Assembly (NCBI GenBank): GCA_030867875.1
Contig: JAOWCC010000577.1
Location: 2,930,660 to 2,994,659 of the forward strand
DNA: 64,000 nt
Reading direction: 5' to 3'
Source: Actinernus sp. WN-2022
Lineage: Eukaryota; Cnidaria; Anthozoa; Actiniaria; Actinernidae
The position numbers were made by a program, and so were the translations under genes. Shown in pieces: positions 57,546 through 64,000 of the stretch. The notes below the pieces were generated by a model that was not told where the DNA came from, made no database searches, and saw only the letters and a program-made list of their open reading frames with translations. Numbering within the stretch: the first letter of the stretch is position 1; every line of letters begins with the position of its first letter.

Positions 57546-58086
57546 GGTATTCTGCTGCATTTGATACTTTGAGGGATCTCTAGTAGTATAGAGGGTGGGG
57601 GCACCGGACCATTTTCCATCATATGGTTTCTGATCTCATACCCCCACCCTATTATTTATCGATCGTATTTTTTATTCTTCTCAAGGTCAAGGTCAAGGTC
57701 GAATTCTCCATAACCGGTTTAACCAGTTCAATCTTTGGATGTCAAATTCTTGGAAATCTCCATAACTGGTTTCAATCTTTGGATGTCTAAAGGCTTGATC
57801 TATAGTGATGTGTACGTATATTTTCGAAATGTGTTTGAACCAGCCGATTGATGGTTCTTCTCTTCGTTCTTCTCATACTATAGTATTCAACTTTTCAAAG
57901 TTGCATTCTAGGCTATCCATTCTAATGGCTTCATTGCCTTGCCTGCTATCCGCTATTGCCATATATTGGCTTCTGCGAGTTTCTTCTATAGTATTTTCCT
58001 TTCTTTCTATTTCATAGTGCGTTCGAGGTATCTTGCATCTTCTCTATGTAATGGATGCTGGTGCATGGTACTCTATATTTAATATC
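56641..58086. other. AT-rich repeats and candidate left edge of the viral block
   Basis: Contains a poly-C run near 56690, a rearranged minus-strand SINE (56955-57270), ATT microsatellites at 57206-57243 and about 57500-57545, and a short inverted repeat AGGGTGGGGGCAC ... TACCCCCACCCT at 57590-57650. The words CTCCATAACTGG and CAATCTTTGGATGTC are doubled at 57705-57790. No gene is supported; a 70-codon ORF at 57805 has no recognised pattern. Confidence 0.5.
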
Positions 58087-58103
58087 TAATATAGTAGTAT
58101 AGG
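58087..58103 (+). promoter_or_regulatory. start-proximal motif, VLTF-3-like gene
   Basis: TAATATAGTAGTATAGG directly before the ATG. It is the most diverged of five copies of the TAATCAAATARTATA motif. Confidence 0.5.
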
Positions 58104-58700
58104 ATGAACTGCAATTCAGAAATCCATGATGAGATGAAAGACTTTGGAGAGTTGTGTCCTTTCTGCAATGAGCGATTGATAGATTACGTACGCGAGAAAG
58201 AGAGTGAGTCGTGTTGTGGCAATACAGAGATAATTAATGATAATGGTATGTATGTTTGCCAAAGCTGTGGTGTAGTTCATTCGTATGGTTTGGTGAATGG
58301 ATATATCGATTACTACGAAAATAGGTATCGAATGAGACGTAAGTCTATCTACCATAGGAAATACCATATTGATAATATATTCATTGCGAAATTTGATTTA
58401 CGATATGATGAGTACATTGATATTCGTCGGTTGTTCAATAAATTCGAAAGTGCTATTAATGTTATATTGAAAGGGAAGAGGTATCCAATACTAGATTTCG
58501 TATTCTATAAGTTGTTCGAAATGAAATTTCGCGAATCTGGAATCAATAACTATCACATTCATATGCAAAAGTGTACTAGGTATATATCGAAGATTACTGT
58601 TAAACGATATGTGAGGATATGGAAGAAGATTTGTGATATGAATGAATGGTTATACATAGAGACTCATAATGGTGTTTTCGTAAGAAGTGAAGATAATTGA
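58104..58700 (+). CDS. zinc-ribbon protein, VLTF-3-like late transcription factor
   Basis: 198 residues. Cys pairs at 18/21, 37/38 and 52/55 form a zinc-ribbon pattern (CPFC, CC, CQSCG), followed by an aromatic/basic stretch with YHRKYH, the position of the Y.R..HF motif of NCLDV VLTF-3 proteins. The rest is helical and basic, as in the TFIIB-like core. VLTF-3 proteins drive late gene transcription in poxviruses and related large DNA viruses. Similar short proteins occur next to capsid genes in cnidarian elements (recollection). It reads toward the other structural genes but stands alone on this strand at the left end. The ORF is intact. It could instead be a more general TFIIB-like zinc ribbon; the link to late transcription is inference. 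Confidence 0.6.
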   Translation: MNCNSEIHDEMKDFGELCPFCNERLIDYVREKESESCCGNTEIINDNGMYVCQSCGVVHSYGLVNGYIDYYENRYRMRRKSIYHRKYHIDNIFIAKFDLRYDEYIDIRRLFNKFESAINVILKGKRYPILDFVFYKLFEMKFRESGINNYHIHMQKCTRYISKITVKRYVRIWKKICDMNEWLYIETHNGVFVRSEDN

Positions 58701-58711
58701 TATGGCAATGA

Positions 58712-59209
58712 TCAACTAGTTGCGTACTTCTTATTGTATCTCTCTCTGAATCTATCAACTAGTGGACATAGGTCACTAACTTGATCATCCAACCAGTTCA
58801 ACTCTAATGTAAATCTTTCGATGTCGAGTTCTTCTCCACGCAGGTATGCCCTTATTTTATTCAAGATCTTCTGATATGATGTGTACGCAAATTTGCTCAT
58901 TTCTGTTTTCCTATTGTAGTTTTTCATTTTTAGTAGTCCTTGGAGCAATAGTCCAGATCCCGATATTGTACCAAGAATGATTGGATTTAGTGTTATAGAT
59001 CCAATGATTACGCCTGTACTTGTGAGACCAATTGACGATAAGTGTAGAATTGTACTAACCTTCTTGAATCGTTTGTATGCTCGCTTGTGGCAGAAGCATT
59101 TTTTGTGGTAGTGTGCATATAGCTTCTTTAACATTTCGACGTCTGCTTCACTTAAGTTCTTATCGATATGATTGAAATTGAAAACGTTAATTTTCGTTTT
59201 AACCGTGAT
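58712..59209 (-). CDS. two-helix membrane protein of the viral block
   Basis: From the first ATG (59134) the protein has 140 residues: a Cys/Lys/Tyr-rich start, two hydrophobic segments at about 29-48 and 51-68 separated by an NP turn, and a charged helical C-terminus ending in an acidic/Arg-rich stretch. The frame stays open a further 25 codons upstream to a stop in the promoter-like motif, and the upstream residues look protein-like, but no ATG occurs there; ATC at 59207 or ATA at 59213 stand where the start is expected. Homologues in other cnidarian elements, as I recall, include this longer N-terminus. Function unknown; possibly a virion membrane or packaging-related protein. It ends 12 bases from the VLTF-3-like gene, which is convergent with it. 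Confidence 0.6.
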   Translation of the reverse strand: MTVKTKINVFNFNHIDKNLSEADVEMLKKLYAHYHKKCFCHKRAYKRFKKVSTILHLSSIGLTSTGVIIGSITLNPIILGTISGSGLLLQGLLKMKNYNRKTEMSKFAYTSYQKILNKIRAYLRGEELDIERFTLELNWLDDQVSDLCPLVDRFRERYNKKYATS

Positions 59210-59212
59210 TCT

Positions 59213-59227
59213 TATATTATTTGATTA
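59213..59227 (-). promoter_or_regulatory. start-proximal motif, membrane-protein gene
   Basis: TAATCAAATAATATA on the minus strand, next to the expected but missing ATG. It fixes where the start should be. Confidence 0.6.
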
Positions 59228-59239
59228 TATAATTTTAAA

Positions 59240-59866
59240 TTATTCAGATGTGTATACCAAAACACCATTTGATGTTGACTTAGTCATTCCTACGATTTCT
59301 TCTAAACTCATTTTAGACACAGTGTAGCCATTCCATGCTGCATTTGGATTTCTGTACACTCTATTCATGGTAACGTTGCCACCATCTGTTATCTTAACTT
59401 GCAATTTATATCTGTGTGGTTGTGTGTCAAGTGGTTGATGGAAGGTCGTATCTGATACGCACACCATTGCTTCGGTATCCTTAGGCAATTGGCAGCCAAA
59501 ACCACTTCTATTACGAGCCAAAAGTGTTGCATTTGGTAGGTTGTTAGTGCCAATGTCAGTGTGTATTCTAACGTTAATTTGTGTTGTAAATGACAATAAT
59601 ACCCACTTAAACCAAACATTTGCACCACCGCTATCATTGCCCAAATATAAAACGCATGATAATCTTATCATATTGTTAATACTTTTAGGTGTGTATCGAA
59701 TTTCAAATTCAGGTAGATCTATCCATCCAGTGTCGCTATGACTCCATAAATTTGAAATCTCTCTTACGATATAGGTAGCCAACTTAATAGAAGCTGAGTC
59801 ATTTATCACCGTGATTTGTGTTTCGCAAGCAGGTTTCTTGATATTTAAATCGTTAAATACTCCCAT
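59240..59866 (-). CDS. fibre-like protein, globular paralogue of the collagen-like protein
   Basis: 208 residues, no collagen repeat. Begins MGVFNDLNIKK and goes straight into a domain shared over about 170 residues with the C-terminus of the collagen-like protein (59888-61408): both have YI.(K/R)EIS.LWSH, DTGWIDLP/DMEWGDIP, LS(C).(L/I)YLG.D(S/T)GGANVWF(K/R)W and EE(I/V).G(M/I)TKS. The gene lies 21 bases downstream of that paralogue on the same strand, so it arose by tandem duplication with loss or gain of the collagen segment. Likely a surface or fibre-tip domain of the virion; this is inference from the pairing with a collagen stalk. Confidence 0.7.
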   Translation of the reverse strand: MGVFNDLNIKKPACETQITVINDSASIKLATYIVREISNLWSHSDTGWIDLPEFEIRYTPKSINNMIRLSCVLYLGNDSGGANVWFKWVLLSFTTQINVRIHTDIGTNNLPNATLLARNRSGFGCQLPKDTEAMVCVSDTTFHQPLDTQPHRYKLQVKITDGGNVTMNRVYRNPNAAWNGYTVSKMSLEEIVGMTKSTSNGVLVYTSE

Positions 59867-59885
59867 TGATTATATTATTTGGTTA
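59867..59885 (-). promoter_or_regulatory. start-proximal motif, fibre-like gene
   Basis: TAACCAAATAATATAATCA precedes the ATG and fills almost the whole 21-base gap to the upstream gene. Confidence 0.65.
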
Positions 59886-59887
59886 TA

Positions 59888-61408
59888 TTATTCTGATGTG
59901 CATATTACATCCCCATTACTATCAAAACTCTTCGTTATCCCAGAGACTTCCTCTACGATCATACTTGAGGTAACATAGCTATTCCACTTAGCATTTCCAT
60001 CATTGTATATTTTATTGATTGTAACGGTTCCTGTGTCTTTCACTTTTATCTGTAATTTATATATGTGTGGGGTTTTATCAAATGGTACATGGAATGCCTT
60101 ATGGGACACGCAGGCAAGAGTTTCTGGATTGATCGCTAATTGTGCACCAAAGCTAGCTCTGTTACGGGTTTGAATGATACTATTTGGTAAAGAATTCGTA
60201 CCGATGTAAGACAGTAATCCACTACTCGAATTTACAACGACCCATCGAAACCACACATTAGCTCCTCCTGTGTCGCATCCAAGGTAAATAGTACACGATA
60301 ATCGAATTAAATTTGTCGTTTCCTTGGGAGATATTGTGATTGAGAAACGTGGTATGTCTCCCCACTCCATGTCTGCGTGACTCCATAAGTGTGAAATCTC
60401 CTTTGCTATGTAAGTGACTGTCTTGATAGGAACTATTTCTTGCACTCTTTGTTCAATAATGTACTCATTATCATCAAAGACAGTAGGATTCACGAAGGTA
60501 TTTGCATCTAATGCTCCAGCAATGATTGCAACATAGATAGTTATTAGCTGATTGGTTGACTGATTATGACTCAACGTAAATGATAGTTTACCTATGCTAT
60601 TGGCAGATGTTGTTATGCTGAGCTCTTGGAAAGCAGTGTTTGTAGATCCTATCCTTCCACTTTTTAGCGTGTTTGAGATGAAACTTAGATTCTCTTCAAT
60701 TGATAAAGAGCTTAGTATTATGGATCCAATGTTGTTTGCATAAGCTTCAACTCGAACTGTGTAGGTGCTATTGCCTTTTAACCCTAAAGTCGTATTATCA
60801 TTTTTTGGTATAGTCATAGTCAACGTTTCTGTTGAGTTCGGTTTAAAAGTCTCTAGGATCCTAAAACCTCGATGTTCTGGAGTGATGTTATTCATAGAGT
60901 ATGCGTCATCTACAATCATAAATGAGCTTACACTGCTTGATGATGCCCAATTACTAGACTTCATAAGGAAATTACCACAATTGAATGTTAGACTACTATG
61001 CATAACACTAGACCCAGGCCCAGGCCCTCGAGCACCAGTGTCACCTTTATCGCCTTTGTTGCCTTTCGATCCTATTGTGCCTTGAATTCCTATCAAACCG
61101 CGTGGACCTAATGCTCCCTGTGGTCCCATACTTCCTTTTGGTCCTGTTATTCCAATATCTCCCGTATCGCCTTTTAGTCCTTGAATGCCTTGAATACCGG
61201 TATCGCCTTTGTTACCTTTTGATCCTATCGCACCCGGATTTCCTGTCAAACCACGTGGACCTAATGCCCCTTGTGGTCCTGTACTTCCTTTTGGTCCTGT
61301 TATTCCAATATCTCCCTTGTCGCCTTTTGGACCTTGGAGACCTGGGTCGCCTTTTGACCCTCCTTTTGGATCTTGTTCTTTGTTATCCAAATCATTAAAA
61401 ATCCCCAT
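59888..61408 (-). CDS. collagen-like structural protein with fibre-like C-terminal domain
   Basis: 506 residues. N-terminus MGIFNDLDNKEQ, then Gly-X-Y repeats from about 16 to 134, a middle beta-rich region, and from about 335 a C-terminal domain paralogous to 59240-59866. The collagen part has an internal duplication: GDIGITGPKGS(T/M)GPQGA and its neighbours recur with a 17-triplet (51-residue) spacing. Collagen-like proteins of large DNA viruses and Polintons form virion surface fibres or stalks. No signal peptide; the Gly-X-Y stretch is uninterrupted by stops. It is 19 bases from the upstream ATPase gene. Alternative: a host collagen fragment, which the compact viral context and the shared N-terminal MG.FNDL make unlikely. 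Confidence 0.8.
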   Translation of the reverse strand: MGIFNDLDNKEQDPKGGSKGDPGLQGPKGDKGDIGITGPKGSTGPQGALGPRGLTGNPGAIGSKGNKGDTGIQGIQGLKGDTGDIGITGPKGSMGPQGALGPRGLIGIQGTIGSKGNKGDKGDTGARGPGPGSSVMHSSLTFNCGNFLMKSSNWASSSSVSSFMIVDDAYSMNNITPEHRGFRILETFKPNSTETLTMTIPKNDNTTLGLKGNSTYTVRVEAYANNIGSIILSSLSIEENLSFISNTLKSGRIGSTNTAFQELSITTSANSIGKLSFTLSHNQSTNQLITIYVAIIAGALDANTFVNPTVFDDNEYIIEQRVQEIVPIKTVTYIAKEISHLWSHADMEWGDIPRFSITISPKETTNLIRLSCTIYLGCDTGGANVWFRWVVVNSSSGLLSYIGTNSLPNSIIQTRNRASFGAQLAINPETLACVSHKAFHVPFDKTPHIYKLQIKVKDTGTVTINKIYNDGNAKWNSYVTSSMIVEEVSGITKSFDSNGDVICTSE

Positions 61409-61410
61409 TC

Positions 61411-61425
61411 TATACTATTTGATTA
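61411..61425 (-). promoter_or_regulatory. start-proximal motif, collagen-like gene
   Basis: TAATCAAATAGTATA, two bases before the ATG; identical over 15 bases to the motif before the capsid-type gene at 63244, on the other strand. Confidence 0.75.
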
Positions 61426-61427
61426 TA

Positions 61428-62066
61428 TTAAACCTTTCCATAGAAATTTCTCCTAATCGTTTTCGCTGGCTTGTCAACGTATAAGAATGAATATGGTTCT
61501 CTAGTAGCGCCTCCATATTGCTCTTTGCTTACTCCCAGTTCTCGAGATATGAGGCCTCGTTCATTAGTGCTTGGAAACTCGAATACACAATAATGAGAAC
61601 AATTCAATCGTATATCTTTTGGGGTCTTATAGAAACTTTGACTTAAGTAGATCACGCTGCAATTTTTATGTCTACCTCTAATAAAATAATCGATTAGTGG
61701 TTTCTGATTCTTTTCACACACAAAATCGTCAAATATGACAAGTTTTTGACTGTCGCTATCGATTTCACTAACAGGAATAATATCATCATTACCACACTCA
61801 ATGACGTCATAACCCACGTGATTGCTGATTTCATTAAACTGTTTTGCCAAATCCTGATACTTTCCTTGTTCTAAGTTCTTAGCGTATAGATAGATTTTGT
61901 CATAATACACTAGTGGTTTTCTGAGCACATGTGTCAAAACATTTGTCTTACCACAGCCACTTGGTCCAGTAATTAACATTCTAAAATTGTTTTTCGGCAT
62001 GAATGGATGAAGCTGCTTATAGTTCGTAACAGCATCATTTCCGTTGTCATAGTTTGGAATTTCCAT
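61428..62066 (-). CDS. A32/FtsK-HerA-type DNA packaging ATPase
   Basis: 212 residues. Walker A GPSGCGKT at 34-41, Walker B LVIFDD at 109-114, followed by YFIRGRHKNCSVIYLSQSF with the sensor Gln, the order of the A32-type genome-packaging ATPases of Polintons, virophages and NCLDVs. Its usual job is to drive viral DNA into preformed capsids with energy from ATP. Length and motif spacing are normal for Polinton ATPases and the frame is intact. It is the first gene of the minus-strand cluster and is divergent from the virion-protein gene at 62176. It lacks the TAATCAAATA motif; instead, GATAAG words lie at its start and across the divergent region. Confidence 0.85.
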   Translation of the reverse strand: MEIPNYDNGNDAVTNYKQLHPFMPKNNFRMLITGPSGCGKTNVLTHVLRKPLVYYDKIYLYAKNLEQGKYQDLAKQFNEISNHVGYDVIECGNDDIIPVSEIDSDSQKLVIFDDFVCEKNQKPLIDYFIRGRHKNCSVIYLSQSFYKTPKDIRLNCSHYCVFEFPSTNERGLISRELGVSKEQYGGATREPYSFLYVDKPAKTIRRNFYGKV

Positions 62067-62175
62067 CTTATCTATACATATTGAATAGACTATTTAACAC
62101 TACGTTCTTGATATATGTCGTGAAAAAGATAAGTCGAGATAAGTTGAGATAAGTTATATAACGTATATGTATACA
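62067..62175. promoter_or_regulatory. divergent control region with GATAAG repeats
   Basis: 109 bases between two divergent genes. Holds three tandem copies of an 11-base word (GATAAGTYGA type, 62128-62157), and a further GATAAG adjoins the ATPase start. A different class of promoter from the TAATCAAATA motif genes is a reasonable guess. Confidence 0.5.
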
Positions 62176-63246
62176 ATGGATATAAATGAGTTTAAAAAGC
62201 ACGTCATTCCAAAGATTGAATCTGGTAAAATGGTCGATATTGTCCGTAAAGCCATTAAAGATGGAGAAAATAATAAGCAGGACAAATATGAAAAACGAAA
62301 AGAAGTGTACAAACCAATCGTTCAACAACTGGAAAAAGAGATAGATGAGATAAGTGGTTTAAGGGAAGAGTACGTTAAGTCTGCAAATAAGCCAATCACA
62401 TACACTCAACAAGTTCAACAACTAGCTATAAATGATGGAAAAGATGAGATAAAAATCATAGCTAATATGGATAAAGGGTTTACGCCTGAAGAATTCGTCA
62501 TTATGGAGAAATACAATCTACCATTACCCTCTAAGGTTCTATTAGACACACTAAAGGATGATAAAACAGTTGGTGATGTTTTGAGAGAAAGTAGCGATAT
62601 TAATAAACTGTTGGGTCAACAACAAGGTCATATTTCTACAACGAAAAAATCTAGGAGTCAGAATAAAGATGAAATAGCTAAGTACAAGAAGGAGATTAAT
62701 GCAATAAAAAAATATAGAAAACGAATAGGTTTTACTGAAGAAGGAATAAAGACACTACAAACAGGAAAGGGTATTTACAATCAACCAAAAAGGAATGCTT
62801 ACAAGATCACAAGTGGTGGGCAATATGGCAACCTAAGTATAGATGTACCCCAACTGTTTGGTCAACTTAAATTGATAGCAAGTAAAGATGGTAAGAACGT
62901 ATATAATACGATGGTTGATTTTGACACTATCGATTTGCTCACGAAACGCTTTAATAGTAAGAAAAAATACAGCGATCTCTCTAAGAGTGTTTTCAACGAT
63001 CTCAACGATCTATCCGAAATCCCAATACATAGAACATCTAAGAAGTACTCTAAAATAGGAGCTGGAGTAGTATACTATAATGATCCACAAGATCTATTGA
63101 ATCGTTTGGAATTGCTTGGTGGCTCGATTGCGGCAGGTAACGATTCACTAAAAAACGAGTTCTCGGAGGTTGCGCACACACTGAGACGGTTGAATGTATT
63201 TTCTAATGATCATCTCGAGAAATTGTTGGATGAATATATTATGTAA
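62176..63246 (+). CDS. conserved Polinton-type virion protein
   Basis: About 356 residues from the second ATG (MDINEFKKHVIPKI); an in-frame ATG nine bases upstream (62167) would add three residues. The first half is Lys/Glu-rich and probably coiled coil. The last 150 residues contain the conserved run: YGNLSIDVPQLFGQL, DLLTKRFNSKKKYS, LSEIPIHRTSKKYSK, VVYYNDPQDLLNRLELLGGS, and KNEFSEVAHTL. I recall this C-terminal pattern from proteins beside the capsid and ATPase genes in animal Polintons; its function is not established, perhaps core or minor capsid. Intact, 12 bases before the next gene. Confidence 0.6.
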   Translation: MDINEFKKHVIPKIESGKMVDIVRKAIKDGENNKQDKYEKRKEVYKPIVQQLEKEIDEISGLREEYVKSANKPITYTQQVQQLAINDGKDEIKIIANMDKGFTPEEFVIMEKYNLPLPSKVLLDTLKDDKTVGDVLRESSDINKLLGQQQGHISTTKKSRSQNKDEIAKYKKEINAIKKYRKRIGFTEEGIKTLQTGKGIYNQPKRNAYKITSGGQYGNLSIDVPQLFGQLKLIASKDGKNVYNTMVDFDTIDLLTKRFNSKKKYSDLSKSVFNDLNDLSEIPIHRTSKKYSKIGAGVVYYNDPQDLLNRLELLGGSIAAGNDSLKNEFSEVAHTLRRLNVFSNDHLEKLLDEYIM

Positions 63247-63258
63247 TCAAATAGTATA
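63244..63258 (+). promoter_or_regulatory. start-proximal motif, capsid-type gene
   Basis: TAATCAAATAGTATA directly abutting ATG; the first TAA is also the stop codon of the preceding gene. Confidence 0.75.
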
Positions 63259-64000
63259 ATGTCGAATGTGAGAGAAAGAGCAATATATATTTCATCTGTT
63301 GATAGAGAAAAGCGTGGTGTGAGTAAGTCTGAAGATTTCACCATAAAATTTAATCCTTCAATAATGCTTCCTTCTGACAAGGAACACGAAGTGGCTGTGG
63401 ATAAAATATCAATGACATACTCATGGCAAAATATCACTCCAGAATATGACAACAACACCATAAAATATAGTCATGACGGAAGTACATGGACTACAGTGAT
63501 ATTCCCTAATGGGATGTATTCTTACCTTGACATAAATGACTATATACATCAAGTAATGAAAATAAATGGCCACAAGACCACAGTCAATGGTGTAGATAAG
63601 TTCGATATTAACGTAATCTTCGTGTTAACCACATACAAAGTAGTTGTTGAAATTAGTAAGAACTACCAATTAGACCTAAGAGAATCGAATTTTGGAGAAC
63701 TCATTGGATTCAATAAGAAAATCGTCAATACGACTGAGTACGGATCCAAGCTACCGAATATCACAAATAGTATCGACACGCTACACGTGAATACAGATAT
63801 TATAAATGACAGCATCGTTGGAGGATCTAATAGCAATACTTTATTCGTCATTCCAACAGACGGTTTCACTCGATCATACCCATTTACTGTTGAGCCAAAA
63901 AGAGCATTATTCAATTCAGTTTCAACAAACATCATCAGCAAAATGCGTTTCTATATAACGGACTCAATAAGAAGACCAGTAAATCTAAATGGAATTGAAT
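63259..64000 (+). CDS. capsid-type structural protein (penton/minor capsid candidate), partial
   Basis: Open from ATG at 63259 to the window edge (247 codons, no stop). N-terminus MSNVRERAIYISSVDREKRG followed by a DF-type strand (EDFTIKF), beta-rich throughout, with ESNFGELIGF in the centre and TDSIRRPVNLNGIE near the end. The N-terminal strand pattern and the closing RP-LNG motif are those of jelly-roll structural proteins encoded next to ATPase and virion proteins in cnidarian Polinton-like elements. The near-C-terminal motif implies a total length of about 260-270 residues, which suits a minor capsid (penton) protein better than a double-jelly-roll major capsid protein. Assignment from pattern memory; a structure prediction would settle it. 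Confidence 0.55.
   Translation, partial: MSNVRERAIYISSVDREKRGVSKSEDFTIKFNPSIMLPSDKEHEVAVDKISMTYSWQNITPEYDNNTIKYSHDGSTWTTVIFPNGMYSYLDINDYIHQVMKINGHKTTVNGVDKFDINVIFVLTTYKVVVEISKNYQLDLRESNFGELIGFNKKIVNTTEYGSKLPNITNSIDTLHVNTDIINDSIVGGSNSNTLFVIPTDGFTRSYPFTVEPKRALFNSVSTNIISKMRFYITDSIRRPVNLNGIE

Follow-up and report, generated by a model that had tools for sequence, protein, structure and literature searches.

How do Maverick/Polinton elements express their capsid genes? This step is a gap in our understanding of such elements, and the question is raised by one end of a 64,000-nt stretch of DNA from Actinernus sp. WN-2022 (assembly GCA_030867875.1, contig JAOWCC010000577.1, positions 2,930,660 to 2,994,659, forward strand; "the window" denotes this whole stretch), whose right end holds the left 6.4 kb of a 15.9 kb element of this kind. 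A preliminary description of the window had noted near-identical 15-base motifs before genes on both strands and a diverged copy before a zinc-ribbon gene. Both observations hold: three exact copies and one with a single mismatch are present, and the diverged copy, with three mismatches, lies 2 nt before the zinc-ribbon ATG. Judged from sequence, the motif is probably the core element of a promoter of the late class, belonging to a Maverick/Polinton (adintovirus-like) element. Specifically, the combination of a start-codon motif with a gene resembling a poxvirus activator suggests that elements of this kind run a late gene programme of their own, and it provides a testable rule for capsid gene expression.

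The 15-base motif is real, but it forms part of a conserved unit of about 20 nt, TTATNTAAYNNANTARTATA, which was found by aligning gene starts on the nearest TATA and which also occurs at capsid-type and 278-aa genes beyond the window. This unit is common to non-homologous genes on both strands, comprising most virion-type genes and the zinc-ribbon gene, hereafter the VLTF3-like gene. It is followed by 0-6 nt and then ATG at the penton, capsid-type, collagen, fibre, 278-aa, coiled-coil and VLTF3-like genes, and these are the 7 of 13 scored starts at which at least 9 of its 12 specified positions are matched. The copies within the window are as follows:

58082..58101, plus strand: diverged 20-nt motif, 2 nt before the VLTF3-like ATG, 11 of 12 specified positions (15-mer copy with the three mismatches at 58087-58101)
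59213..59232, minus strand: 20-nt motif of the membrane-type gene (exact 15-mer at 59213-59227)
59871..59890, minus strand: 20-nt motif, 4 nt before the fibre-like ATG (15-mer at 59871-59885, one mismatch)
61411..61430, minus strand: 20-nt motif, 2 nt before the collagen-like ATG (exact 15-mer at 61411-61425)
62073..62092, minus strand: weak motif, 7 of 12 positions, 6 nt before the ATPase ATG
62154..62173, plus strand: motif, 10 of 12 positions, 2 nt before the second ATG of the coiled-coil gene, with GATAAG repeats just upstream
63239..63258, plus strand: 20-nt motif reaching up to the penton ATG, 0 nt between (exact 15-mer at 63244-63258)

The spacing of 0-6 bases given in the preliminary description applies to the penton, collagen-like, fibre-like and zinc-ribbon genes; it does not apply to the membrane gene, whose first ATG (59134) lies 78 nt downstream of the motif. 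The intervening frame is open, and in three sister copies a homologous 164-aa membrane-type open reading frame (ORF) starts 3 nt after a motif of the same kind. The motif therefore marks the start of the membrane gene, which it predicted better than the first ATG did. At this locus the exact 15-mer is present in 7 of the 10 copies examined, the window copy included, and absent from copies L060 and L061. As in this case, the motif can be used to mark gene starts when Mavericks are annotated.

Simulations and draws from other TATA sites led us to reject chance as the origin of the motif. Within the 6,421-nt part of the element in the window, the 15-mer occurs three times exactly and four times with at most one mismatch, versus 0.01-0.02 expected at the latter stringency; the highest count in any of 4 x 300 simulations was 1, and the 57.5 kb of flanking DNA in the window contain no match with one mismatch or fewer. 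A de novo test on the 100 nt before seven starts recovered a single 15-mer, allowing one mismatch, at 4 of the 7, with a null maximum of 2. Gene duplication was likewise rejected as the cause except for the collagen-like and fibre-like genes, which are paralogs (both match the same stretch) and whose motif copies may share descent. When the test was repeated without the fibre gene, the shared 15-mer was found at 3 of 6 starts (null maximum 2); with 50 nt, a range that does not reach the membrane motif, it was found at 2 of 7, a count equalled by one of two nulls in 16 of 300 runs. In 10 of 14 genes the distance between TATA and ATG is at most 12 nt, versus 76 of 681 ATGs. The 16 nt upstream of TATA agree at 7.82 of 16 positions among eight genes (without fibre and membrane), compared with 4.34 +/- 0.38 and a maximum of 6.14 over 20,000 draws from the element's 252 other TATA sites. 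In the window's flanking DNA, a score of at least 9 of 12 is reached at 1 of 2,570 ATGs.

Do related elements carry the motif as well? This was checked in related families within one genome, as opposed to independent species, and there the motif is present and conserved. Copies with a penton 59-98% identical were chosen by protein similarity and not by motif, as were the VLTF3-like and PolB starts, and the genome places scored are lower bounds (penton, best 150 of 541; VLTF3-like, 150 of 377; capsid-type, 98 of 563; ATPase, best 150 of 4,045; PolB, 36 of 7,067 candidates). TATA stands within 12 nt of the ATG at 20 of 20 of these penton starts. The VLTF3-like start has the motif in all 10 fetched copies (protein identity 80-94%), with a base change in one, and that of the 77% family (families are labelled here by percentage) keeps it slightly changed. 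Across seven other families, 19 of 21 scored starts match at least 9 of 12 positions. The scoring excluded the 119-aa, ATPase and coiled-coil starts of families other than the window element's, except the ATPase start of the 61% family. The capsid-type motif is nearly letter-identical between the 68% family and the window element, while the preceding bases differ. Measured as mean pairwise identity, the 16 nt before TATA exceed the preceding 20 nt in five of five genes, clearly in four (VLTF3, 0.99 v 0.66; capsid-type, 0.68 v 0.42; penton, 0.57 v 0.35; collagen, 0.61 v 0.49) and barely in the 119-aa gene (0.33 v 0.29); the capsid-type start of the 77% family, where TATA overlaps the ATG, was omitted from the mean.

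Genome-wide, a close form of the 20-mer followed by ATG has 329 matches versus 1 for the reversed pattern, and among 100 of them that were listed, many adjoin penton, capsid-type, 278-aa or membrane-type places. A relaxed 15-mer followed by ATG yields 433 matches versus 157 reversed. The exact 15-mer yields 326 versus 51 reversed, a count inflated by a host repeat: among eight of these loci that were fetched, element genes account for three and a single unrelated repeat for four, while L004 lies elsewhere, and 326 therefore overstates the number of elements. The host repeat was rejected as the source of the motif. This repeat (L003, L005, L006 and L008) contains the exact 15-mer around position 1501. 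Searches of viral_contigs with penton, ATPase or VLTF3-like queries, and of genome_contigs with the penton query, returned no relatives.

How might such a motif act? Because TATA at 0-6 nt from the ATG is unfit for an ordinary TATA box, initiation would lie inside the motif, with RNA synthesis beginning within or just after TATA and yielding mRNAs almost without a leader. The element could have a late factor of its own in the VLTF3-like protein, which would read TTATNTAAY, the upstream half, and bring in an RNA polymerase from the host or a helper; one or the other must act, since no RNA polymerase gene was recognised among the element's 14 genes. Recognition of the motif by the VLTF3-like protein is plausible, and because the motif also stands before the VLTF3-like gene itself, the system might act as a feed-forward switch once DNA has replicated.

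The identity of this candidate factor rests on its relatives. Among 16 homologs of the zinc-ribbon protein, 11 have a precomputed PF04947 (Pox_VLTF3) assignment, and 5 of 10 rescanned homologs pass the PF04947 cut-off. The earlier designation as a VLTF-3-like zinc ribbon thus stands by way of the homologs and not by the window protein's own match to the profile; "VLTF3-like" is a fair label, and we do not file the protein as a VLTF3 family member. By sequence, its matches in the PDB are only weak or at chance level, and a PF04947 search of the whole genome found one other place. Many VLTF3-like copies of 93-95% identity are not near the listed penton places (best 150 of 541), and a Maverick clade that has a different penton may be their source.

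A more far-reaching version of the promoter reading is possible, and we put it forward only tentatively: the VLTF3-like factor and the start-codon TATA would form a self-contained late switch through which host RNA polymerase II produces late mRNAs that have no leader, and one lineage that lost the factor would also have lost the upstream half. If true, a poxvirus-type late system would be older or wider than Nucleocytoviricota and untied from a viral polymerase. The lineage in question is the 61% family, of which one copy was read in nine pieces. It has no VLTF3-like gene by tblastn (eight pieces) or by profile (all nine), and the same profile finds the gene in the window element, in the 77% family and, diverged and partial, in the 65% family. 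Near the end where the window element has VLTF3, the 61% family has an F-box/ankyrin gene. None of its eight scored starts reaches 9 of 12, and across the nine pieces, host flanks included, 1 of 210 TATA sites does so (0 of 100 in four pieces); short TATA cores such as AATATAG remain beside ATGs. The lack of the upstream half in this family fits a factor that reads that half. As an aside, this sister Maverick (L107:528-1721, C685) has an inverted PolB and tandem repeats in its terminal repeats.

Several points weigh against the promoter reading or against the proposed role of the factor. The case is built from sequence, and the element's own seven high scores are circular because the consensus TTATNTAAYNNANTARTATA was drawn from the same element. 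Scores are weak at the ATPase (7), PLA2 (8) and 119-aa (8) genes, the protease start scores 3, and the integrase and PolB starts have no TATA in range. The motif of the 119-aa gene hardly exceeds its flank, while that of the penton gene overlaps a stop codon and has a coding flank. In one sister clade TATA stands directly before the PolB ATG (L098), and a strict late-only rule therefore fails. Regarding the factor, the window protein itself is without a PF04947 match, and comparison of the zinc-ribbon profile with giant-virus VLTF3 is weak (probability 8%, E 0.004). The VLTF3-less 61% family is one lineage with one copy read, and its GC content of 0.44-0.50, versus 0.36-0.37, could alone erode an AT-rich motif. 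In the 68% family the motif is retained (penton 9, capsid-type 12), which lowers the probability of a self-contained switch; no VLTF3-like gene was found in its expected 3 kb, a stretch that is decayed. A strict restriction of the motif to structural genes was also considered. Its carriers are mostly virion-type genes, but this restriction had to be dropped: the VLTF3-like and coiled-coil genes carry it, the protease gene does not, and the PolB of that one clade has TATA.

African swine fever virus has a large genome with its own polymerase. Its late promoter is the closest in layout, with TATATA at the initiation site and an upstream AT-rich block (described in parts of PMC5294985), although the upstream sequence of the element motif differs. 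According to passages of the same source, both this promoter and the poxvirus late promoter TAAAT initiate within the motif, and an ordinary TATA box acts 25-30 bp upstream of initiation. Like the poxvirus promoter TAAAT(G/A) as these passages present it, the element motif is AT-rich, overlaps the start codon and has an upstream AT-rich part, and as in the poxvirus VLTF-3 system a VLTF3-like protein is present. Unlike in poxviruses, the core is ARTATA and not TAAAT, no RNA polymerase gene was recognised, and the relation to VLTF3 runs via homologs. In position and conservation, we thus find what characterizes poxvirus- and asfarvirus-type promoters, an AT-rich element at or overlapping the start codons of virion genes.

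Other systems share single traits with the element. In virophages and endogenous mavirus-like elements (EMALEs), a motif (TCTA in mavirus) also precedes the genes of an integrated, polinton-related element (sections of PMC8547959), but the mavirus TCTA is the late promoter of its helper, whereas the window element had no helper match in what was searched and has a VLTF3-like gene. The late complex of beta/gamma-herpesviruses likewise consists of viral factors that bring host RNA polymerase II to a TA-rich element (portions of PMC12197705); unlike here, it comprises six viral proteins, and its element lies upstream of the start site. Adintovirus-like insertions in Amoebidium have VLTF3 and PolB (parts of PMC11244446), but their host is unicellular, and the phrase "promoter motif" is absent from the available text of that article. 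Homologs of VLTF2 and VLTF3 have been stated to be undetectable outside Nucleocytoviricota (in passages of PMC11253617), and this has a bearing on VLTF3 as a diagnostic, as window-type and Amoebidium elements carry VLTF3-like or VLTF3 genes. Particles of Mavericks/Polintons were unobserved as of 2021, according to sections of PMC8097293. Already known, then, are virophage promoter motifs, start-codon late promoters of large DNA viruses and VLTF3 in the Amoebidium elements; for a promoter motif in animal Mavericks, no description was found in the literature searched, with the founding adintovirus paper (veaa055) outside that search.

Could host or helper machinery alone account for the motif? 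A plain RNA polymerase II core promoter (TATA/initiator), served by host factors without the VLTF3-like protein, would explain why TATA varies least and is still there in the family in which no VLTF3 was detected, and no viral RNA polymerase was recognised. A normal TATA box at 25-30 bp would, however, put initiation inside the genes (by the distances given in parts of PMC5294985), the upstream half is common to genes and conserved beyond TATA, and the window's flanking DNA has the motif at only 1 of 2,570 ATGs; we consider this explanation unlikely. It is quite improbable that the motif is instead a copy of the late promoter used by a helper giant virus whose machinery expresses the element, as in virophages. 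Mavirus-type elements do share the late motif TCTA of Cafeteria roenbergensis virus (CroV; portions of PMC8547959 and PMC10945749), and the same assembly contains a 196-kb contig with giant-virus capsid and VLTF3 genes. Yet in the 8.5 kb of that contig that were read, 0 of 162 TATA sites reach 9 and six tested gene starts lack the motif, and the 20-mer form yields three stray single matches in viral_contigs, none within 7 nt of an ATG.

The motif could also act at the RNA level, either as a leader that aids translation or as a 3'-end signal of the preceding gene. It stands at start codons, often directly behind or overlapping the previous stop codon. But its distance to the following start stays short, no gene precedes the VLTF3-like gene in the element, 7 of 10 copies retain the membrane-gene motif although the first ATG is 78 nt away, and 20 nt of specific sequence exceed the needs of an A-rich leader; we regard this explanation as highly improbable. 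A separate observation concerns the giant-virus contig: the piece L110 (G000:C1216:180000-188500; GC 29%) encodes a major capsid protein (PF04451/PF16903) and a full VLTF3 (PF04947, 198 bits). A Pox_D5 (PF03288) search of the genome found nothing.

What, then, is the element under the putative late promoter? The preliminary term "Polinton-like virus" has to be corrected, as the terminal repeats, integrase, PolB, ATPase, protease and penton identify it at the sequence level as a Maverick/Polinton of adintovirus type. The complete element extends from 57582 to the equivalent of window position 73525, and the remainder past the window end was read in L009. A blastn comparison of its two ends gives an inverted 488-nt alignment (99.8% identical, one base in the duplication), and an identical 6 bp target duplication lies on both sides. 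Its features are:

57582..58068: left terminal inverted repeat, target-site duplication immediately outside
58104..58700, plus strand: VLTF3-like zinc-ribbon gene, 198 aa
58712..59134, minus strand: membrane-type gene, 140 aa from the first ATG, frame open upstream to the motif
59240..59866, minus strand: fibre-like gene, 208 aa, paralog of the collagen-like C-terminus
59888..61408, minus strand: collagen-like gene, 506 aa (PF01391 Collagen, 62.5 bits)
61428..62066, minus strand: A32-type packaging ATPase gene, 212 aa (PF04665 Pox_A32, 52.7 bits; 2526 relatives)
62167..63246, plus strand: coiled-coil-type gene, 359 aa (Pfam matches weak, below cut-off)
63259..63999, plus strand, continuing beyond the window: penton gene (724 relatives)
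L009:4279-5100: integrase (rve PF00665 and chromodomain)
L009: protease, adenain-type (PF00770)
L009:9825, window position 73525: right end of the element

Past the window end, L009 holds the 119-aa gene, the 426-aa capsid-type gene, the 278-aa gene, the protease gene, a PLA2-domain gene, the integrase and PolB. Some of these names are labels of limited reach: "membrane" comes from the sequence-only first reading, "capsid-type" from the position of the 426-aa ORF after the penton, which has no Pfam or PHROG match, and PolB from a homolog. Specifically, the PolB ORF is 45% identical to an ORF with DNA_pol_B_2 (E 1.6e-16); it has no direct Pfam PolB match, and by sequence its PDB matches are weak or at chance level. 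The fibre-like protein has no match in a Pfam scan. For the penton, the sole named relative among the matches is "penton [Corynactis coral adintovirus]", at 58% identity. Ten penton places, the window copy included, round to 100% identity (best 150 of 541 candidates, fragments included), and the family has therefore expanded recently.

A few minor observations concern the gene borders. Near gene ends, poly(A) signals form no clear pattern. The first integrase ATG follows shortly after the end of the PLA2-domain gene, and the frame continues open upstream of it (L009:4177-4300). At three of 100 listed places (G000:C235:37158542, C398:22981509 and C635:8692606), two copies of the exact 15-mer stand in tandem, judging by position in front of the collagen-like gene. 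Finally, the intergenic region between the divergent ATPase and coiled-coil genes (window 62067-62166) contains GATAAG repeats that recur in six other families displayed and that possibly represent a second promoter class.

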